DNA from: Candidatus Mcinerneyibacteriota bacterium
Lineage (GTDB): Bacteria; AUK180; JAQVHJ01
Assembly: GCA_030630935.1 (NCBI GenBank)
Contig: DAOVMD010000039.1
Coordinates: forward strand, 1 to 12,423
Reading direction: 5' to 3'
DNA length: 12,423 nt
Part shown: positions 1-12,130 of the stretch, piece by piece
Numbering within the stretch: the first letter of the stretch is position 1
Layout of the letters: each line of letters begins with the position of its first letter
The notes under the pieces: model-generated
The model's database searches: none
What the model was told of the DNA's origin: nothing
Seen by the model: the letters and a program-made list of their open reading frames with translations, nothing else
Made by a program: the position numbers and the translations under genes

Positions 1-2273
1 ATTGTAAATACTACCTGGTCACCGGCCGTCTTTTGCTGTTGAGTTGCAAATGAAATTTGCTTTGCGGCATCAGTGGTTTTTTCAACCATATCATTTATTC
101 TCTTTAACTTTTCATTAACTTTTCCTGCCAGGAAAACACCCTCCTCGACCTTTTTTATCTCATCTTCCGTTGACATAATAGATGAATTAATAGAAAGTTG
201 AATTTCATTAATCAGGTTCCTGATCTCTTCAGTTGATTCTGCAACATTCTCTGCTAATTTTTTTATCTCGACTGCAACTACTCCAAATCGCTTCCCCGCT
301 TCTCCTGCGCCTGCTGCTTCAATTGATGCATTCAATGCAAGGAGTTTGGTTTGACTGGAGATATCATCAATCATTTCAACAATATTCCCTATTTGTGTTG
401 ATTTTTCACCCAACTCAAGAATTCGTTTTGAAGTATTTTGGGACGAGATTTTAATTCCTTCAATACTCCCTAATGTCTCTATCATATTCTGAGCACCTTC
501 AATAGTTATCTTTAGTGTCTCTTCAGCAAGTTTAGCAACAATTTCAGCATTCTCAGCGATCTGGCTTGCAGTAGTCGCAAACTCCTCAACAGTTGAAGAA
601 GTCTCCTCAACTGATGCAGCTTGTTGCCCTGCGCCTGAAGCCAGTTCTTCACTCGAAGATAAAATCTCTGCCGATGACGATGCAATTTTTAAGCCGGCGG
701 CGGTAACCTGGGTCACCATATCCTTCAGGTTCGCAACCATCCTTTTAAATGCAGTTTTCAAATCACCATCCAGTAAAACAGAAGTATCAATTGATAAATT
801 CCCATCTGCAATTGTCTCAACATGATATCCAAGTTTCAATAGGTTTTCAACCATCTGTGAAAATGCCGTTCCCAAGTCACCGGTCATTTTCTCCTTCAGT
901 GATAGATTCTTTAAATCATCTGCGGCGAGAGCTTTTGCCTGGTCAGCAAATTTCCTTAGTTTCTGAATCATTCCCCAGAATGCTTCTCCTAAATCACCTT
1001 GATAGCGGGTATCAAGAAGTTGATTGGAGAGATCATCATTTGAGATCGAAACGGCTTGGGAAGTTAATGCCCTTAACTGAACTAGCATCTTATTAAATGA
1101 TAATGCAAAATCGCCGACCTCATCATCGGTAATTGAATAAATCATATGACTAAGATCTCCTTCAACACTGACTTGATCAACTGAAAAGCGTAAGGCATTT
1201 ATTGAATCGGAAATCTGTTTCGCAAAAACATAAGTAATAAAAGTAATAATTATTAGAATTATTATTGTAAATAAGCCGTAACTAATAATAAATTTCGAAA
1301 CAGCGTGCATAATTACAGGGTCAAGATAAAACATGACACTTATATATCTCATCTCTTTATCTTTGAGTTTGGAATAAGCATAAATTTTCATATTATTGAA
1401 ATCTTCAACAATTCCACTTTCGCCCAGCATAATCTCTTCTACTATCCAATCGGGAATGTTTTTCTCTTCATAAATATTTTTAATTTCATCCGGATGATCA
1501 CTGACAATGTTTCCATCAATATCAACTAAAAACGCATAACCTTCTTCCCCAACTATTATCGTTTCCATTTTTTTCGAATTACCATCAAACTTCTCAGTAT
1601 AAGCAATTAATTGCTTGAGAAGTAAATTGGTAACCTGTTCATACATAATATTTTCTGCTTGAGTAAATGAAATAACTGCAATATTAAATAAAATTATTAA
1701 ACTTATAATTGTAACTGTTAAAAAGATCTTTTTCAATAACGGTGTTTTTGGAACTTGAAAATCGTAAGAAGAAAATTTCATTAATATTTTTGTATAATCC
1801 CGTAAGAAAAAACTCATTACGTGAAGATTGAGCAGGGCATAAAGAATACTGAGCCCTATTCCGATAAAAAACATTCTTAAACCGCCAATATGATTAAAAT
1901 GCGTAAATATCGTCAATAGCAAGACTCCGATTACAAATGCAATTAAAATTGTAATAGCACCAATTATGCTGATTTTCATGGGAAGTTTTAAGAGACCCTT
2001 AATCATATCTTCCAGTTCTTCAGAATCCTTCAATGCTTCGTCGCTTTTATTTAAGAAATCTTCAAATGGCTTAAATTTCACAAGGCATATTCCTAAAGTC
2101 ACGGCTAAAATAATAATCCCAAATAACGATCCGCCAATCATCAAAACTACTTTCTGTTCTGATGTAAAATTAACTCCATAAACCAAAGTCGTAATAATTA
2201 TTGCTGCAAGGGAAATAAAAACAATTATTTCATACTTAATAAAATCGGAAAAGATATTTATTTTTTTACTCAT
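1..2273 (-). CDS. Methyl-accepting chemotaxis protein with Cache-like sensor and four HAMP-like units (3' end cut by window)
   Basis: This is a membrane chemoreceptor that should control CheA through CheW. The ATG at 2273-2271 follows an AGGGGA ribosome site, and 757 codons are visible. Comparison with the neighbouring receptor suggests about 42 residues are missing. Hydrophobic segments lie near residues 16-34, 43-65, 100-123, 132-155, 183-203 and 328-351. Between the last two is an external domain of about 120 residues. Its [10 protein letters not shown] motif (about 245-254), followed by a VSDHP stretch, resembles a Cache ligand-binding fold. Residues about 352-517 hold four HAMP-like units, each with a GDL/DDL-type turn followed by a conserved F-x-x-M helix. 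The methylation helices and signalling hairpin fill about 525-757. The tip reads [19 protein letters not shown], clearly an MCP tip but with R-to-G and G-to-R changes against E. coli Tsr. It is the last visible operon gene, 22 nt after the other MCP. Receptor identity is sure; the ligand is unknown. Confidence 0.95.
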
Positions 2274-2295
2274 CAATATTCCCCTGTTTTCAGAT

Positions 2296-4182
2296 TTATT
2301 CTACTTTAAATTTCTGAACAATTTCTTTAAAGTCCTCAGCTAACTTATTCAATGCTTCAGTCGCATTCATAACTTGTTTTGTGGATATAGCGGATTGTTT
2401 TGTTACGTTTGCAATGTCTTTCATTGTGAAAACAACTTGTTCTCCTGCGGTCTTCTGCTGTTGAGTTGCAAAAGAGATTTGTTTAGCTGCATCAGTTGTT
2501 TTTTCTACCATATCATAAACTTTTTTCAATAGGTCATTAACTTTTCCGGCATATAAAACTCCTTCATCAACTTTTTTAATTTCGTCCTCAGTTGACATAA
2601 TTGAAGAGTTAATTGAAAGTTGAATTTCTTTAACCAAGTTACTGATCTCTTCAGTCGATTCGGCAACATTCTCTGCGAGTTTTTTTATCTCAACGGCTAC
2701 AACTCCAAACCTCTTTCCCGCTTCTCCGGCACCGGCAGCTTCAATGGAGGCATTTAATGCAAGGAGTTTTGTTTGACTTGAAATCTCATCGATCAATTCA
2801 ACGATATTCCCTATTTGTTTTGATTTTTCACCCAACTCAAGAATTCGTTTAGAGGTATTTTGTGACGAGATTTTAATCCCCTCAATACTGTTTAGAGTAT
2901 CAATCATTGCCTTGGTACCAGATTCTGTGATCTTCAATGTTTCTTCTGCCAGTTTTGCGACTATCTCGGCATTCTCAGCTATCTGCCTGGCAGTTGTGGC
3001 AAACTCTTCAATTGTTGAGCTTGTCTCTTCAACTGATGCTGCTTGTTGACCTGCGCCTGAAGCAAGTTCTTCACTTGACGATAAAATCTCTGCTGATGAC
3101 GCAGCAACTTTTAATCCCGCGGCTTTAATCTTAATAACAATATCTTTTAGATTCGTTACCATCCTTCTAAATGATGAGTTCAGGTCACCTTCCCTGTCAC
3201 TCATTCTTTTTAAAGTAAGATCTCCTTCAGCAATAACATCAACCTGAATACTTAATTTCTGAAGATTCTCAACCATATCTGTAAATGCCGTGCCAAGATC
3301 GCCCGTCATCTTTTCACGAAGTTTTTCACTTTTCAAGTTATCCGAAGCAATCTCACGGGCTTGACCTGCAAGTTTCCGTAATTTCTCTATCATATTCCAA
3401 AATGCTTCACCAAGCTCTCCAGGTACTTTTTGATTTAACCTCTCGTTAAAAAGATCATCGCTCGCAATAATTTGTGAGTATTCCACAATATTTCTTATAC
3501 TTCCGAGCATATTATTAAAACTCACCATTAACCAACCCAACTCATCTTTACCTGTAACCTCAACCCCAACAGTCAGATCACCATCTTCAACTTCCGCCAT
3601 AACTCTTCGTATCTTCTTTTGACGGTTTAAAAGATCCTTACTAAGTATACCAATCATAACACTTAGATAAATTGTAAATACAATTTTCAGAGATTCAAAA
3701 AAGATCACACTGCCGGTAAATTCTATCTTTCCGGTCTTGTGCCCAAATACAAGAGCAACGATGTAAGCTATCATTGAAAAAACTCCTGCATATAACGACA
3801 TCCCCAGACCTAATTCCATTGCATTATGGATGATTCCCAGAAAATATAAAACAAAGAAAGGACTCATATTATATCCGGTATATGGCACTATCAAAGTTAT
3901 CACGATAAGGTCTGTTAAAGGAAAAATATATCGAAAGGGCTTCCAATACTGGTCTTTTTTAAATATCACAAGCCAGATTACTATATTCTGAATTACAGGA
4001 ATTGAAATAAGAATCACAATCATCGACCAGGAAATCTCAATTAACGAGGTGCCTTTCATCACAAGGATTAAGACTAAAGATAAGGCAGCTGCACCGCAAC
4101 GATCCCAAAAACCGTTTTTTTGAAGTTGTTTTTCTTTCTCTTCCTGTTCCCATATTAATTGTTTTAGTAGCTTATCTTCCAT
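2296..4182 (-). CDS. Methyl-accepting chemotaxis protein with multi-TM sensor and four HAMP-like units
   Basis: This is a complete 628-residue chemoreceptor. The N-terminus (1-28) is charged and probably cytoplasmic. About six hydrophobic segments follow (near 29-44, 48-74, 86-102, 105-120, 126-147, 158-181) with only short loops, so there is no real periplasmic domain. The [16 protein letters not shown] stretch (101-116) recalls the integral-membrane sensors of some histidine kinases; that is a recollection of pattern, not a search. Residues about 182-347 contain four HAMP-like units with turns at GDL201-203, DDL242-244, DNL281-283 and GDL320-322. The methyl-accepting and signalling domain spans about 354-586, with the tip at 477-492. 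The C-terminus (EIVQKFKVE) has no NWETF-type tether for CheR. The start at 4182 follows GAGGAG, which lies inside the last codons of the upstream cheW gene, implying coupled translation. The signal could be membrane state, a lipophilic compound or another protein. Confidence 0.95.
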
Positions 4183-4184
4183 TA

Positions 4185-4739
4185 TTAATTCTCCTCTAAC
4201 TTTTCGAAAGTTTTAATTTCTGAATTTAAAACATTATTAATCTCAAGTAAAGTAATTATTATATTTCCATATTTAAATTCGCCTTCAATATACTCCATCT
4301 TTAACCTTTCAATCGTTGATAATGGCGGAGTAATTTTATCTTTGGTGACTGAAACAATCTCGCCAATCTCATCAATTAAAAAACCTAAGCGAATATCCCT
4401 GAAAAAGATTATACAGATATATTCTCCCTCTGCTTCACCGGGGGTCTGGTCTAATTCAAGTAATTTCTTCAAATCTAAAATTGATATTATATTCCCTTTC
4501 AAATTAAATATCCCCTTTGCGTATTCCGGGGCATAAGGCAATGAAATTATCTCAAAATCCTTTACTATCGCATTGAATTTTGTTAAATCTAATCCATACC
4601 ACTCCCTACCTAATCGAAAAGATAATATCTCACGTCCTGTTTGCAGCTCCATCTTAATTTCTTTTGAAAGTTCTTCGGCGCGCCGAAGCAGAATTGCATT
4701 AACTTCTTTTTCAGTAAATTTTTTCTTACCTGTGGCCAT
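4185..4739 (-). CDS. cheW: CheW-like coupling protein with N-terminal helical extension
   Basis: CheW scaffolds link receptors to the CheA kinase in signalling arrays. The protein is 184 residues. Residues 1-35 are a charged, probably helical extension (KEVNAILLRRAEELSKEI) ahead of the CheW fold at about 36-178. The family core AKGIFNLKGNIISILDLKKL (74-93) is present. The arginine usually found in the N-L-R-G motif is lysine (K81), a conservative change. I recall similar extensions in CheW proteins of non-flagellar, Frz-like systems. The ATG at 4739 overlaps the 3' end of the upstream cheW by 14 nt in another frame. A GGAG lies 10 nt upstream of the start, inside the upstream gene, so translation is probably coupled. 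The other CheW lacks the extension, so the two may play different roles, as FrzA and FrzB do. That comparison is inference. Confidence 0.92.
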   Translation of the reverse strand: MATGKKKFTEKEVNAILLRRAEELSKEIKMELQTGREILSFRLGREWYGLDLTKFNAIVKDFEIISLPYAPEYAKGIFNLKGNIISILDLKKLLELDQTPGEAEGEYICIIFFRDIRLGFLIDEIGEIVSVTKDKITPPLSTIERLKMEYIEGEFKYGNIIITLLEINNVLNSEIKTFEKLEEN

Positions 4740-5217
4740 TATCTTTATTCTCCAAGTTAATTACGCTGGATTTTAAAACTTCAAGTTCTTCAAAAGTAAT
4801 TATCTTTTTTAGGTCGAGTATAAAAATCAAATCATCATCCTCTCTCAATATCCCTGTCAGGAACTGAGAAAATGGAATATGCTTTGACGGCTTATCTATT
4901 TTATTCACATCAACTATTTTTATGTCAGAAACATCATCTACTATTAATCCGCTCAATTCATCATTATTCGAAACTATTATTATCGCACGATTTAAAATTT
5001 CGTTTCTATATTCCAAAGAAAACAACTCAGGCAAACCAATTACCGGTATTACTAACCCTCTGAAATTTAAAATACCCTTTACAAAGTCGGGGCTTTTGGG
5101 GACGGTTGTAATTTTCACCATCTTTATTATCTCAACTACACTCTCGATAGGTAAGGCAAAATTATGTTCTGAAATGTATAACAATAAAAAATTCTTAGTT
5201 TCAACCTGGTCATTCAT
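4726..5217 (-). CDS. cheW: CheW-like coupling protein (compact form)
   Basis: This 163-residue protein is essentially one CheW domain (about 8-150), near the usual family length. The core VKGILNFRGLVIPVIGLPEL (46-65) keeps the conserved arginine (R53) used by CheW to contact receptors. The aspartate common in the PVxDL segment is glycine (G61). A second typical region, GLIVDDVSDI (90-99), matches the second beta-barrel half. The C-terminal 20 residues are charged and variable. The ATG at 5217 is only 8 nt after the receiver gene's stop and has no strong ribosome site, only a purine-rich AGAAGA inside the preceding gene, so it probably depends on coupled translation. Its 3' end overlaps the next cheW by 14 nt. 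Its likely job is coupling one or both MCPs to CheA. Which receptor each CheW prefers cannot be read from sequence. Confidence 0.93.
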   Translation of the reverse strand: MNDQVETKNFLLLYISEHNFALPIESVVEIIKMVKITTVPKSPDFVKGILNFRGLVIPVIGLPELFSLEYRNEILNRAIIIVSNNDELSGLIVDDVSDIKIVDVNKIDKPSKHIPFSQFLTGILREDDDLIFILDLKKIITFEELEVLKSSVINLENKDNGHR

Positions 5218-5225
5218 AGTTTATT

Positions 5226-5618
5226 TTATCTTCTTTTTGATTCTGTTATTAACTTCTCAACATGTCCGTAGAGTTCATCTAAATCAAAAGGTTTCGGAAT
5301 AAACATTGAAGCTCCTGCTCTTAATGCAGTAATCTCGGATCGTTTCGCATCCCTGCTTGATGTTATAATTACCGGAGCGTTCTTATATTTTTCCCTGGCT
5401 CGGATCTCTTTCACGAGATTATAACCGGTTTTATGAGTACCTCTTAAAACAATGTCAAGAAGAAATAGATCTATTCGAGTTTTGTCGTCTAAAATCTTTA
5501 AGGCATCATCGACATTCTCAGCACTTAGTACAGTATAACCTTCACTTTCAAAATAATACTTAACCATGTTTACCAATGTCGAACTATCTTCAACATATAG
5601 AATTGTTTTTTTAGCCAT
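5226..5618 (-). CDS. Stand-alone response regulator receiver (CheY-like)
   Basis: This 130-residue single receiver domain should take phosphate from CheA. The acidic pair is E10-D11, the phospho-accepting aspartate is D55 (LFLLDIVLRG), the switch Ser/Thr is S87 (IITSSRD) and the conserved lysine is K109 (FIPKPFD). No output domain is attached. After D55 the usual MPxxDG turn is replaced by a longer VLRGTHKTGYN stretch, so the beta3-alpha3 loop is unusual. The ATG at 5618 follows an AGGGGG ribosome site formed by the last codons of cheR, whose stop is 6 nt upstream. Because no motor genes are present, it may act as a mobile output like CheY or FrzZ, or only as a phosphate sink. Receiver assignment is very sure; the specific role is inferred. 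Confidence 0.93.
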   Translation of the reverse strand: MAKKTILYVEDSSTLVNMVKYYFESEGYTVLSAENVDDALKILDDKTRIDLFLLDIVLRGTHKTGYNLVKEIRAREKYKNAPVIITSSRDAKRSEITALRAGASMFIPKPFDLDELYGHVEKLITESKRR

Positions 5619-5624
5619 TAATGA

Positions 5625-7139
5625 TTACCCCCTGAATATTTTTTTTATTTGTTTTATATTAAAGTTACAAAATTCTATTAATTGAGTGTTTACAAACATA
5701 CTTTTAAATGTCCTGAAGCAGGATTTATGGTTCTTTTTAAGAACCTTAATTGCATTACTATAATTCACTAAAGCCTCAGAATACAACCTGATCTGCTGAA
5801 ATGAGAATGCCAGTTCAAAATAAGCAACCCCGCAGTTATTATTAAGAAATAAGACTTGCTTAAAATATTTAATTGCAGAAATAAAATCTTCTTTTTCATT
5901 ACTGATGATACCCAGTAAAAAGTATGCTTCTGTATTAATTGGGTTCCGGTTTAAAACCTGTTTACATAAACGTTCTGACCAATCATACTTCCTCTCATTT
6001 GCAAGAATATTCGCTTTTAGAATAATCCCGTATTCGTTGTTGGGATTGATTCTTAAAAGACCCTCTACTTTTTCCAGAGATTCCCTGAACCGTTCATAAT
6101 TAAAATCTTCAAGTGCGTCATTAAATAAATTTTCCTCCAATTCTCTCCCTGCATAAATATCCTTCATCGCAGTCTTTTTCTCTCGTTCTTTGAGTTCCCG
6201 CTCTTCTCTTTCTCTTTGAGCTTTAATAATATCTGCCCTGATCGGTTTAACTTCAAATTGCTTGAGTATCTTTTTCGTCGGTTTCTTCACTATTCTTTTT
6301 TGGAAGACAAAAGTATCACCAAGAATTATTGGTTGAAATTTATCTGTAATTTGATTGATCGCTTCAGAATGGCCAACGATTAAAAAACCGTCATCATGCA
6401 GAAAATCAAAGAAACTATTTGTAACTTTCCTTATGCTGTCATGGTCAAAATAAATAAAGACATTTCTGCATAGAATCAAATCAATCTTTTGAGAACTATT
6501 TATAGGCGGTTCAATTTCAAGCAGGTTCGACTGTTTAAAATTAACCATGGATTTTATATCGCTTTTGAGTGAATATATCTCTTCGCTCAGATTGAAATAT
6601 TTATCAATAAAAAATTGAAAGGACGTATCTCTAAATGAACGATTTGAATAAAGACCCTGTCTACTTTTCTTAACCGAATCAATTGCAATATCAGTTCCAA
6701 TTATTTTAAATCTGCTGAGAGTAGTTTCCGGGAAAAATTCTTTTAGGTACATTGCAATGGAATATGGTTCTTCCCCTGTTGCACTTCCAGCACACCAGAT
6801 TATAATATCTTCATTAGCAGTTTTTCTTTCGATAATCCTGGGAATAATAAAATTCTTTAAACTTTGGAAATGAGTTTTATTCCTGAAGAAATATGTTTCA
6901 TGATTTGTTACAACATTCAATAACTCTTTATATTCCTTTGAATCCCTATTAACTAACAACAGTCTGTAGGTTTCAGGATCAAACTTAAAATTTAATTCTT
7001 CGATTCTCTTTAAAATTATGGTTTTCAAATTAATAGTTTTATCCTTATTGAACTTTATGCCTGTTCGTGAGGAAATCAGGTCGCGAACATATTCAACTGT
7101 CTCATCAGGAAGTTTTATTTTTTTGGCTTCCAAGTTCAA
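5625..7139 (-). CDS. cheR: CheR-type receptor glutamate methyltransferase fused to TPR repeats
   Basis: CheR uses S-adenosylmethionine to methylate receptor glutamates during adaptation. The protein is 504 residues, against roughly 270-290 for simple CheR. An all-helical N-domain (about 10-75) precedes the catalytic domain (about 76-282). Visible motifs are TNHETYFFR (78-86), the SAM-binding WCAGSATGEEPYSIAM (115-130), GTD148-150, ILCRNVFIYF (222-231) and GHSE (256-259). A very charged, probably helical linker (about 303-327, rich in R/E/K) leads to three or four TPR-like helix pairs (about 335-470). The TPRs may substitute for tethering, since the visible MCP C-terminus lacks the pentapeptide CheR normally binds; this is inference. 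FrzF of Myxococcus has the same CheR-TPR plan. The start is TTG, not ATG. It lies 9 nt after cheB ends. Confidence 0.95.
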   Translation of the reverse strand: MNLEAKKIKLPDETVEYVRDLISSRTGIKFNKDKTINLKTIILKRIEELNFKFDPETYRLLLVNRDSKEYKELLNVVTNHETYFFRNKTHFQSLKNFIIPRIIERKTANEDIIIWCAGSATGEEPYSIAMYLKEFFPETTLSRFKIIGTDIAIDSVKKSRQGLYSNRSFRDTSFQFFIDKYFNLSEEIYSLKSDIKSMVNFKQSNLLEIEPPINSSQKIDLILCRNVFIYFDHDSIRKVTNSFFDFLHDDGFLIVGHSEAINQITDKFQPIILGDTFVFQKRIVKKPTKKILKQFEVKPIRADIIKAQREREERELKEREKKTAMKDIYAGRELEENLFNDALEDFNYERFRESLEKVEGLLRINPNNEYGIILKANILANERKYDWSERLCKQVLNRNPINTEAYFLLGIISNEKEDFISAIKYFKQVLFLNNNCGVAYFELAFSFQQIRLYSEALVNYSNAIKVLKKNHKSCFRTFKSMFVNTQLIEFCNFNIKQIKKIFRG

Positions 7140-7148: not shown

Positions 7149-8183
7149 TTAATTCATAAATTCAAGAATCATCTTTGATATTTTAAGTAATGGAAGAACC
7201 TTGTCTATCTTCCCTGTTTCAAATGCTGTTTTCGGCATTCCATAAACCACACTGGTCTCCTCGTCCTGGGCAATTGTCTTTCCCCCATAATGCTTCACCC
7301 TAACGATACCTCGCGTACCATCATCACCCATACCGGTTAATATAACTGCAATAACATTCGCCCTGAATGCAGAGGCAACTGTCTCAAGTAAGTAATCTCC
7401 TGCAGGTCTCAAACCGTTGATAGGAACTTCATTTGAAAGTTGAATCCTACCATGATGATTCACCTTCATATGTGTTCCCGTAGGGGCAAGATAAATTATC
7501 CCGGGCTTTATCTTCTCATTCTTCTCGGCTACAACAACCTTCATTTTACACTCGGAATCTAACCAGTCAGCCAAACCCTGGATAAAACCATCTGCAATAT
7601 GCTGAACTATTAAAATAGGCGCGGGGAAATCATTAGGCAATGGAGAGAGAACTTTCCCAAGGGATTTCGGACCACCGGTTGAAGATACAATCGCAACAAC
7701 CTTCATTGATTTCATAGCTTTTGGTAAAGGGATATTTAAATCTTTTTCAACTTTCAATGCTCCCTTGATATGTTTAATCACTTTAACTTTTGAAAGTAGT
7801 TTTACCTTGCGAATAAGCTTAAGAACTTCTTCCCCAGGATTATCCCATTCCCTGATATCTGGTTTCTTCACGACATCAAGAGCTCCTGCTTCCAATGCCC
7901 TGTAAATCAAATGCTTCCCTTCACTTAAAAAAGACGAGCTCGTAACTATTAAAATAGGAAGAGGGTTGTTACCCATGATCTCTTCAACTGCTTTGATTCC
8001 GTCAAGAACAGGCATACAAACATCCATCGTTACAATATCAGGTTTTAAGGTTTTAATCTTCTCAATTCCTTCCAGACCATCATGAGCAAAACCAATTATT
8101 TCAATATCAGGATCCTGTTCAAGAACGTGAGCTAACATCTTTCTTACAACCAGGGAATCATCCACTATTAATACTTTTATCAT
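7149..8183 (-). CDS. cheB: CheB protein-glutamate methylesterase/deamidase
   Basis: CheB removes methyl groups from receptor glutamates and deamidates glutamines; phosphorylation by CheA activates it. The 344-residue length and layout are standard. The receiver (about 1-125) has D8-D9, phospho-acceptor D54 (VTMDVCMPVLDG), T81 and K107. A basic linker (about 126-158) leads to the esterase domain (about 160-344). The nucleophile is S168 in SSTGG. The catalytic histidine is H195 in VQHI, and the aspartate is in GMGDDG (D288 by family alignment). All catalytic residues are present, so the enzyme should be active. The ATG at 8183 follows AGGA inside the end of cheA, 4 nt after the cheA stop. With the following cheR it supplies both halves of receptor adaptation. 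Confidence 0.97.
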   Translation of the reverse strand: MIKVLIVDDSLVVRKMLAHVLEQDPDIEIIGFAHDGLEGIEKIKTLKPDIVTMDVCMPVLDGIKAVEEIMGNNPLPILIVTSSSFLSEGKHLIYRALEAGALDVVKKPDIREWDNPGEEVLKLIRKVKLLSKVKVIKHIKGALKVEKDLNIPLPKAMKSMKVVAIVSSTGGPKSLGKVLSPLPNDFPAPILIVQHIADGFIQGLADWLDSECKMKVVVAEKNEKIKPGIIYLAPTGTHMKVNHHGRIQLSNEVPINGLRPAGDYLLETVASAFRANVIAVILTGMGDDGTRGIVRVKHYGGKTIAQDEETSVVYGMPKTAFETGKIDKVLPLLKISKMILEFMN

Positions 8184-8187
8184 TTTT

Positions 8188-10578
8188 CTAATCCTGCTTC
8201 TCGATTAAATACTTGATTGTATTTAATAAAGTTTCCTGGTTAAAACTACTCTTTAAAATATATTTATCTGCCCCGGCTTCAAGACCCTTGGTCTTGAATT
8301 CGGGCTTATCCCAGGTTGTAACAATTATCACTGGGATCTTTGAAGTTTCTTTAGTCGATTTTATCTTTTTTGTTAATTCAAACCCATCCATCTCGGGCAT
8401 CTCAATATCCGTGATTACAAGATCGTATATACCACGCTGCAGCTTGTTCCAGGCTTCAAGACCGTTAACTGAAAGGTCAACCTTGAACCCGGCACCTTCA
8501 AGAATACTCTGCTCCAACTGCCTGGCTGTAAAGGAATCTTCTGCTACAAGAATATTTATCTGGTGATGAACCTGCTTCCGATCCTTCTTGATAACATGCT
8601 GACGGTGATGTGGTCTTTTCTTTGTAATAGAAATTAAATCAGGGACATTTAAAACCGGAACAATCTCACCGGTACCAAGAATTGTAACACCGGCAATGGT
8701 CTTGGTGCCTTTTAAGGGTTCATCTAAAGTCTTGATTACAATCTGAAGTTCATCCAAAACCCTATCTATTTGAAAAACCATTCTATCTGTTCCAAGCTTT
8801 AAAATCATTCCAAATAATTTTCCCGAGTCTGTGGTCGATTTCTCTAACTTAAGAACCTCTGACAATCTAACATATGGAATAATCTCATCACGGATAATTA
8901 ACGCTTCCATGTTTTTTATATAAACAATTTCCGTTGAATTAAAACTTATAATCTGCTCAACCGCATTGACCGGTAAAGCCAATACCCGACCTGAAACTTC
9001 TACTAATAATGCCCAAATAATCGTAAGAGTAAGCGGTAACTTTAAAAGGAACTCACTCCCGGCTCCGGGAACTGAATGAATAATAATCTCCCCCTTTAAA
9101 GTATTCTGAACTGTTTTGCGGACAACATCCATGCCTACTCCACGACCGGAAATATCCGAAACTTGTTCACGAGTTGAAAAACCCATCTCGAAAATCAGGT
9201 TAAATGCTTCCTCGTCTGTCAGCTCCTTGGCTTCCTCTGCGAAAATTATCCCTTTTCTTAATGCAGATGCCTTTAATTCATTTGGGTCAATTCCCTTACC
9301 GTCATCTTTTACTGAAATGAAAATACTGTCACCTTTACGATAAACCTCTAGTATAATTGTTCCAATCTTCGGTTTTCCCAATTCAGAACGTTTCTCCGGT
9401 AATTCTATGCCGTGATCAATTGAATTTCTTAAAAGATGAATTAATGGATCTTTTAATTCTTCAAGCATATTCGTATCAACTTCTGTCTCAGCTCCCTTAA
9501 TGATAAATTCAATCTCCTTACCCTGAGACCGGCCAATATCACGAATTGTTCTTGGGAATGTATCAAAAAGCGTCGATGCAGGCAGCATCCTTATTTTTAA
9601 AATTCCTTCCTGAAGTTCTGTTGTAATTAAAGCCATTTTCGAAGTGTTCTCGTTATACTCCTTATAAAGACTTGCAATTAAAAGTTTTAAGTTTTTTATA
9701 TTATCTAAAAGTTGAATAACAATAGGTGTATCAAGCTGTTCGCTATACTCATCAAGTAAAAATTTATAATTGGAACTAATCGACTCTGTCAAAAGCTGGA
9801 TGTTTTTTATATCACCTTTTCTGGTATCAGAAAGCATCTGGTTTACAACAACTTCACCCATAATGTTAATCAAATCATCAATTTTCCTGATATTTACTCG
9901 AATTGATTCATGCTTTAATTTCTTTGCTAAAGTTTCCTGAGCCTGAGTCTTCTTTTCAGGCTGAGCAGGCGTAGGTTCGTCAGAAGAAATCTCTTCAACC
10001 TGAACCGGGTCTTCTTCAGACGGTAGCGTGATAGATTTTTCAGGTTTTAAGGTTTTCCTTCCGGATTTTCGAGATGGTTTCGGCTTTGCGGCCTGGGAAG
10101 GAGATTTCTTAGATGAGGTTTTTTTTCCCCTTTTTACCGATTTCGGTTTCCTGGGTTTCTCAAGTTTACTGGCCTCAGGAAGCGCTTTACCTTTTAACAA
10201 GGATTCTATCTTTTCAAGAATCGCATCAGGGTCAGTTTTCATATCATTATCTGAAAGCTTGGCATCTACAATATCATCTATTGAATCAAAAACATCAAAA
10301 CCAATATCTATAATCTCTCTGGAAAGACTAAGAGAGCCTTCTTTTACAACATTGAATAAGGTTTCAAATTCATGCGTAAGTTCAATAATCTTTGTTAAAC
10401 CAACCATCCTGGCAGCACCCTTTAAACCATGAACTTCCCTTAAAATTTCATCAAAAGATTCCGAATCATTGGGATCTTTCTCCAGCTTCAATAAATCATT
10501 ATTCAAAATGTTTATCCGTTCGGTGGATTCCTCTTTAAAAAAACCTAATACAACGGATTTCTTCAGCTTTTTTGCCAT
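8188..10578 (-). CDS. cheA: Hybrid chemotaxis histidine kinase CheA with C-terminal receiver
   Basis: CheA autophosphorylates and passes phosphate to receivers. The protein is 796 residues. The Hpt domain (about 5-130) has phospho-accepting H50 in VHGLKG. A long Lys/Pro/Ser-rich linker (about 131-219) stands where a P2 receiver-docking domain would be; I see no P2. The dimerisation region (about 224-325) starts IRVNIRKIDDLINIMGEVV. The HATPase domain (about 326-515) has the N box LLRNSIDHG (382-390), DDGKGID (425-431) and GRGVGMD (478-484). The CheW-like P5 domain covers about 516-650. A His/Lys/Arg-rich spacer (653-673) precedes a full receiver (674-796) with E680-D681, acceptor D724, T754 and K776. 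The layout matches FrzE-type CheA-CheY hybrids. It is the first gene of the operon, and its own promoter lies 25-53 nt upstream of the ATG. A weak GGGA ribosome site precedes the ATG. Confidence 0.97.
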   Translation of the reverse strand: MAKKLKKSVVLGFFKEESTERINILNNDLLKLEKDPNDSESFDEILREVHGLKGAARMVGLTKIIELTHEFETLFNVVKEGSLSLSREIIDIGFDVFDSIDDIVDAKLSDNDMKTDPDAILEKIESLLKGKALPEASKLEKPRKPKSVKRGKKTSSKKSPSQAAKPKPSRKSGRKTLKPEKSITLPSEEDPVQVEEISSDEPTPAQPEKKTQAQETLAKKLKHESIRVNIRKIDDLINIMGEVVVNQMLSDTRKGDIKNIQLLTESISSNYKFLLDEYSEQLDTPIVIQLLDNIKNLKLLIASLYKEYNENTSKMALITTELQEGILKIRMLPASTLFDTFPRTIRDIGRSQGKEIEFIIKGAETEVDTNMLEELKDPLIHLLRNSIDHGIELPEKRSELGKPKIGTIILEVYRKGDSIFISVKDDGKGIDPNELKASALRKGIIFAEEAKELTDEEAFNLIFEMGFSTREQVSDISGRGVGMDVVRKTVQNTLKGEIIIHSVPGAGSEFLLKLPLTLTIIWALLVEVSGRVLALPVNAVEQIISFNSTEIVYIKNMEALIIRDEIIPYVRLSEVLKLEKSTTDSGKLFGMILKLGTDRMVFQIDRVLDELQIVIKTLDEPLKGTKTIAGVTILGTGEIVPVLNVPDLISITKKRPHHRQHVIKKDRKQVHHQINILVAEDSFTARQLEQSILEGAGFKVDLSVNGLEAWNKLQRGIYDLVITDIEMPEMDGFELTKKIKSTKETSKIPVIIVTTWDKPEFKTKGLEAGADKYILKSSFNQETLLNTIKYLIEKQD

Positions 10579-10823: not shown

Positions 10824-10852
10824 TTGACAATCCATATTAAATATGTTATAAT
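10824..10852 (+). promoter_or_regulatory. Consensus extended -10 promoter of the aldolase gene
   Basis: TTGACA (10824-10829) and TATAAT (10847-10852) both match sigma-70 consensus perfectly with a 17-nt spacer. TGT directly precedes the -10, adding the extended -10 element. The start point would be near 10859, giving a leader of about 15 nt that holds the ribosome site. Strong constitutive expression is expected. Confidence 0.9.
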
Positions 10853-12040: not shown

Positions 12041-12130
12041 GGAGGGATGGCCGAGTGGTTGAAGGCGGCGGTCTTGAAAACCGTTGTTTCTGCAAGGGAA
12101 CCGTGGGTTCGAATCCTACTCCCTCCGCCA
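12041..12130 (+). tRNA. tRNA-Ser (anticodon UGA)
   Basis: The acceptor stem GGAGGGA (12041-12047) pairs with TCCCTCC (12120-12126), then discriminator G and an encoded CCA (12128-12130). The D stem is GCCG/CGGC. The anticodon loop CTTGAAA gives TGA at 12075-12077, which reads UCA codons. A long variable arm, as expected for serine, lies between the anticodon stem and the T arm. The T loop is the standard TTCGAAT (12108-12114). The 90-nt length fits a class II tRNA. Confidence 0.97.

Follow-up and report, generated by a model that had tools for sequence, protein, structure and literature searches.

The tandem chemoreceptor genes of enteric bacteria (tar-tap and tse-tas) are situated beside che genes and encode receptors with conserved signalling domains. 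These receptors belong to the 36-heptad class, serve the flagellar system and have four-helix-bundle sensors. In Campylobacter jejuni the receptors Tlp2, Tlp3 and Tlp4 have identical signalling domains and sensors that are about 30% identical, and their C-terminal halves form DNA repeats that have been proposed to recombine into large inversions (PMC9769880, PMC6433261). The receptors PctA, PctB and PctC of Pseudomonas aeruginosa are neighbouring paralogues whose signalling domains are more than 96% identical and whose sensors are less than 56% identical, a contrast that has been ascribed to duplication and selection, with gene conversion unmentioned (PMC6974571). A literature search, which lay mostly outside the subscription journals, yielded no paper in which gene conversion or concerted evolution of chemoreceptors is tested by synonymous sites.

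In the current analysis we have compared two neighbouring receptors, A and B, encoded in a che cluster of a draft genome of 3.16 Mb (referred to as G000; 471 contigs, 80% complete). The window, that is the whole stretch of DNA analysed, is the entire contig C16 of this genome (12,423 bases). Base 1 of the window is base 1 of the contig and the 3' end of the gene for receptor A is therefore lost; as the contig starts inside this gene, about 42 C-terminal residues of A are absent. The genes of the cluster and the parts of the two receptors are as follows.

3-2276, minus strand: receptor A, a methyl-accepting chemotaxis protein with 758 residues visible (open frame; MCPsignal E=2.5e-34, HAMP E=2.8e-7)
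1220-2276, minus strand: sensor part of A, with about four hydrophobic segments, a fifth, an external Cache-like domain and a last membrane segment (hydropathy; orthologue in the relative G001)
753-1226, minus strand: HAMP array of A (residues 351-508), diverged from that of B (HAMP match at 351-403; 42% identity to B)
3-752, minus strand: signalling half of A, probably homogenised with B (change point at A residue 509)
2296-4182, minus strand: receptor B, a methyl-accepting chemotaxis protein of 628 amino acids with a compact sensor of several transmembrane segments (open frame; MCPsignal E=5.5e-35, HAMP E=3e-14; 75% identical orthologue in G001)
3628-4182, minus strand: compact transmembrane sensor of B (residues 1-185), with no external domain (hydropathy; type shared with paralogue C and with the cluster receptors found in the sister family)
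3175-3636, minus strand: HAMP array of B (residues 183-336; HAMP match at 189-230, alignment to A and C)
2299-3174, minus strand: signalling half of B, of which 2428-3174 is comparable with A (change point at B residue 337)
4185-4739, minus strand: first CheW-like adaptor (CheW E=4.3e-22)
4726-5217, minus strand: second CheW-like adaptor (CheW E=5.7e-31)
5226-5618, minus strand: CheY-like response regulator (Response_reg E=1.2e-21)
5625-7139, minus strand: CheR methyltransferase with C-terminal TPR repeats (CheR E=6.3e-52, TPR)
7149-8183, minus strand: CheB methylesterase (CheB E=8e-62, Response_reg)
8188-10578, minus strand: CheA kinase with Hpt, dimerisation, ATPase, CheW-like and C-terminal REC domains (five Pfam domains)

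Both receptors pass the curated cut-off of PF00015 (119-121 bits against 34.6), and a HAMP domain (PF00672) is found over its cut-off in each, between the membrane and the signalling domain. We read A and B as two receptors of one chemosensory array, encoded beside its CheA, CheB, CheR, CheY and two CheW proteins. The C-terminal receiver domain of CheA (8188-10578) is a feature of many non-flagellar chemosensory systems. Elsewhere in the window a tRNA-Ser (tga) occupies 12041-12130; the start of an open reading frame listed at 12084 falls within it, and hence the true protein gene begins later. A perfect match to a sigma-70-type promoter (TTGACA, 17 nt, TG before TATAAT) is present at 10824-10852, ahead of a divergent class II aldolase gene.

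The sequence-only reading of this DNA had described near-identical signalling halves, related HAMP units and unrelated sensors, and the alignments agree with it on all three. The gapless alignment of A with B from AAGLK to VVFT covers 233 residues, of which exactly 26 differ (88.8% amino acid identity); at the nucleotide level this stretch is 80.7% identical, with a dN of 0.073 and a dS of 1.24 by NG86 or 1.13 by YN00. The HAMP arrays of A and B share 42% identity with a dS of about 2.5, and the sensors are unalignable, their identity of about 16% being at the level of chance. A likelihood analysis places a change point in nucleotide identity at residue 509 of A and residue 337 of B, where identity rises from 51.0% to 80.1% (delta lnL 59). 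This is about 17 codons upstream of AAGLK, just beyond the last HAMP unit. In A/B and in the receptor pairs of a sister family the boundary lies at alignment columns 599-612. Change points are also seen, at columns 616-628, between B and the non-tandem paralogue C, so the position of the boundary partly reflects constraint on the protein.

The description of the A sensor as Cache-like with a large external domain stands as far as the external domain is concerned, while the Cache identity is weak and membrane segments are present ahead of the domain. Hydropathy gives about four hydrophobic segments in residues 8-158, another at 178-211, an external domain of about 120 residues (approximately 205-325) and a last membrane segment at 321-357. 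Residues 236-312 match dCache_1 weakly (E=0.0026, 17.8 bits against a Pfam cut-off of 45). In a single-sequence model of the external domain, helices and strands follow one another in a Cache-like order, but the pLDDT is 61, and a fold search with this low-confidence model returned no match. The A sensor is found at clear similarity only in G001 among 145 genomes searched. A receptor of a distant genome (L085, G046:C92) shows a weak match to A residues 43-195 (E=1.5e-4), in the membrane block ahead of the external domain, which suggests from sequence that this block may be part of a mobile sensor module.

The sensor of B is compact, as had been read from the sequence, and comprises a block of hydrophobic segments with no external domain by hydropathy. 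Paralogue C and the sister family's cluster receptors have sensors of this type as well. An identity with 6TM_PilS is not claimed for the B sensor, the resemblance being E=2.8 and in the orthologue. Among the cluster-type receptors found, A alone has a foreign sensor, and by parsimony A is likely to be the copy whose sensor changed.

The pair resembles Tlp2, Tlp3 and Tlp4 in that its signalling half is far more alike than its sensor (88.8% against about 16%) and that synonymous divergence in this half is lower than upstream. The three Campylobacter receptors are of the 28-heptad class, are encoded by dispersed genes and all have dCache sensors, whereas A and B are probably of the 40-heptad class, are neighbours in a che cluster and include one sensor of another kind; the homogenisation of A and B is, moreover, measured at synonymous sites, unlike that of the Tlp receptors. 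PctA, PctB and PctC are also neighbours with matching signalling halves, but their sensors, unlike those of A and B, are of one family. With tar-tap and tse-tas the pair shares tandem receptor genes adjoining che genes and conserved signalling domains.

The tentative assignment to the 40-heptad (40H) class comes from the hairpin of B, which aligns without gaps to the aromatic acid receptor 6s18 and shows a symmetric excess of 14 residues per arm over Tsr. A, B and C share one signature at the tip of the hairpin with those cluster receptors in the sister family whose tips were read: thirteen residues followed by alanine or valine and a further thirteen residues. It departs from the canonical tip, since K and G replace the N and R of QTNLLALNA and EAARAGE. 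These positions correspond to N376 and R388 of E. coli Tsr, where they lie in or close to the contacts between receptors. The remaining receptors found in these genomes lack the tip signature of the cluster and have N at the first position and R or K at the second. The K/G tip, which is present in the window (2431-3000 and 3-530) and at the loci L004, L009, L010, L011 and L041, is confined to one type of che cluster in this class. A tip of its own common to all receptors of one array is what would be expected from selection for fit with one set of CheA and CheW, and conversion would spread it.

No flagellin or FliG over cut-off was found in the seven genomes of the class, and ATPases of the pilT family are encoded in all seven. 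This combination makes type IV pili rather than flagella the likely output, and the array probably steers type IV pili, as far as gene content can suggest.

Taking these observations with those from related genomes described below, we consider that A and B are old paralogues, that the sensor of one of them was replaced, and that gene conversion has made their signalling halves alike again and again under selection for a fit with one CheA/CheW array. We give this reading a probability of about 0.7. A duplication would first have produced paralogues with a compact membrane sensor. The sensor of A would then have been exchanged for the larger one with the external Cache-like domain; the relatives place this event before the split from another genus of the same family, and its mechanism is presumed. 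Homologous recombination between the neighbours would since have overwritten the signalling half repeatedly, in a stretch beginning immediately after the last HAMP unit and reaching into the hairpin, and the sensors and HAMP arrays would have drifted meanwhile; for this step the support is direct in the sister family and moderate for A and B. Purifying selection on the contacts with CheA and CheW and on those between receptors would keep the amino acids alike and favour converted copies. In this manner an external input and one from inside the membrane could be relayed to a single kinase by output halves that are almost identical.

The age of the pair is indicated by G001, which represents a different genus (g2) of the family. 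Its gene order is as in the window, with cheB, cheR, cheY, two cheW genes and B (75% identical) followed by the A sensor (47% identical), where the contig ends. As both sensor types are found side by side in G001, the A/B pair is older than the split of G000 and G001. Duplication with sensor replacement and gene conversion had been proposed as alternatives; each is partly upheld, the replacement is older than this split, and the two processes are successive rather than rival. The signalling half of the G001 copy of A was sought in that genome and not found, the contig ending before it. For the other che genes the codon identity between G000 and G001 is 0.45-0.50, which serves as the background. 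The GC3 of the two genomes is 0.29 and 0.43 respectively, a gap that lowers the codon identity between them. G001 also encodes an apparent second chemosensory cluster (L048, G001:C180, 1-8308), judged from its frames alone, with a CheW-like gene, a receptor with a canonical tip and CheA- and CheB-like genes.

The strongest competitor of conversion is selection alone. By this explanation, which we consider unlikely, A and B are old paralogues held alike by purifying selection on the half that contacts CheA and CheW, with no exchange of DNA between them. The amino acid constraint is indeed strong (dN 0.07 with a dS of 1.24), and paralogue C, which is encoded away from the pair on contig C396, likewise reaches 85-86% identity in the signalling half at a nearly saturated dS. 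Protein selection does not, however, account for lower synonymous divergence in one half of a gene. Where A and B have the same residue, the fraction of identical codons is 0.557 for the signalling half but falls to 0.351 upstream of it (Fisher P=0.0009), whereas the B orthologues of G000 and G001 show no such contrast, with fractions of 0.408 and 0.439 (P=0.55). In the signalling half the codon identity of A with B thus exceeds that of B with its own orthologue (bootstrap P=0.0005), and it is also above the background of the che genes. The handicap from GC3 is equal in the upstream parts, yet the order there is the opposite. Measured against paralogue C within the genome the contrast of the signalling half is borderline (P=0.03-0.05).

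Separate trees for the two halves were compared by codon-model tests of all 15 trees of A0, B0 and C0 of G000 with the G001 copies B1 and C1. For the HAMP array the best tree is ((B0,B1),A0,(C0,C1)) and a grouping of A0 with B0 is rejected (AU 0.0023). For the signalling half the best tree is ((A0,B0),B1,(C0,C1)); the orthologue tree falls short of it by 12.0 log units and, at an AU of 0.077, is left unrejected at 0.05, which selection alone may claim in its favour. With the signalling half restricted to columns 617-849 the tree joining the B orthologues has an AU of 0.30. A run test of the GENECONV type likewise gave no significant conversion tract between A and B (P=0.16 and 0.36), a result also compatible with selection alone, though old tracts would be blurred at a dS of about 1.2. 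The sequence-only reading had named evenly high synonymous divergence with separately clustering orthologues as the pattern that would speak for old paralogues under selection alone. This pattern was not found: along A and B the divergence is uneven, with a dS that is near 1.25 in the signalling half and reaches 2.5 or saturation in the parts upstream of it, and the halves favour different trees. That A and B were homogenised after the split of G000 and G001 is the better-supported, though not a proven, interpretation. The conversion had been called ongoing, and for A and B this word is not sustained, as there is no significant tract and a dS of about 1.2 makes the last homogenisation old.

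More direct evidence is available from the sister family, in which one genus (g3) is represented by G002 and G003, each with a tandem receptor pair, P1 and P2, beside che genes. The dS between P1 and P2 in the signalling half is 0.60 in G002 and 0.40 in G003, with saturation in the sensor and HAMP parts, and the orthologues of P1 and of P2 in the two genomes are similar along the entire gene. In G003 a conversion tract is identified at alignment codons 681-792, where P1 and P2 are nearly identical between flanks with a dS near 1 (P<5e-5, silent-site permutation). Within the tract region the P1 of G002 is mostly the odd copy out, which indicates that in the line leading to G003 the P1 sequence was overwritten by that of P2; the tract does not discriminate among the three quartet trees. 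The low dS beside saturation, together with this tract, excludes selection alone in the sister family.

A third genome, G004, has contigs L046 (G004:C13, at its start) and L047 (G004:C8, at its end) that encode different sensors and both stop in the same exact run of 55 bp at the start of the signalling half. The last 24 of the 55 bases occur within the G004 bin only at those two contig ends. A continuation of the run, as a collapsed repeat contig, was sought in the bin and none was found; the remainder of both genes is missing. From the way assemblers work, shared contig ends of this kind usually indicate that an exact repeat has been collapsed.

A recent fusion, in which a foreign sensor and HAMP array were joined once to a copy of the B signalling half that has diverged since, is improbable. 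The sharp boundary between HAMP and signalling parts and an A sensor foreign to the receptor family are what such an event would produce. The HAMP array of A is, however, related to those of B and C, which places the join of the sensor upstream of the array and not at the boundary. The A sensor of G001, moreover, already adjoins B and has a background codon identity, so that the fusion predates a split that is itself older than the divergence of the A and B signalling halves; on this conservation the fusion was set aside. It would be less easily dismissed if the G001 copy of A had no matching signalling half beyond the end of its contig. Least probable is an assembly chimera, with a misassembled copy of B or of another receptor standing in for the signalling half of A. 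The contig does end inside this half, and G004 again has breaks in repeats of this kind. Across the half, however, about 19% of the bases of A differ from those of B and 24% from those of C; A is thus a copy of neither, and no assembler join is expected there.

Matching signalling halves in chemoreceptor paralogues are usually put down to selection on protein contacts. The pattern at the protein level is already known from Tlp2, Tlp3 and Tlp4 and from PctA, PctB and PctC; the evidence for a mechanism at the level of DNA in the relatives of this genome is unusually direct. Exchange of DNA between neighbours contributes to the pattern, as synonymous sites show clearly in the sister genomes and with less force in the window. 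Homogenisation of the signalling half also explains contig breaks at such genes in draft assemblies, and orthology can be misjudged from trees built on entire receptors or on signalling domains.

We put forward only tentatively the wider possibility that recurrent conversion, and not selection alone, is the usual way in which an output half is kept common to the neighbouring receptors of an array. If this were true, conversion would spread each change in the hairpin tip to all receptors of the array at once and leave the sensors free to vary, and it would have kept the non-canonical K/G tip uniform across the che-cluster receptors of this class. Exchange of DNA between neighbours is a simple route by which the receptors of an array may change the surface that contacts the kinase together.
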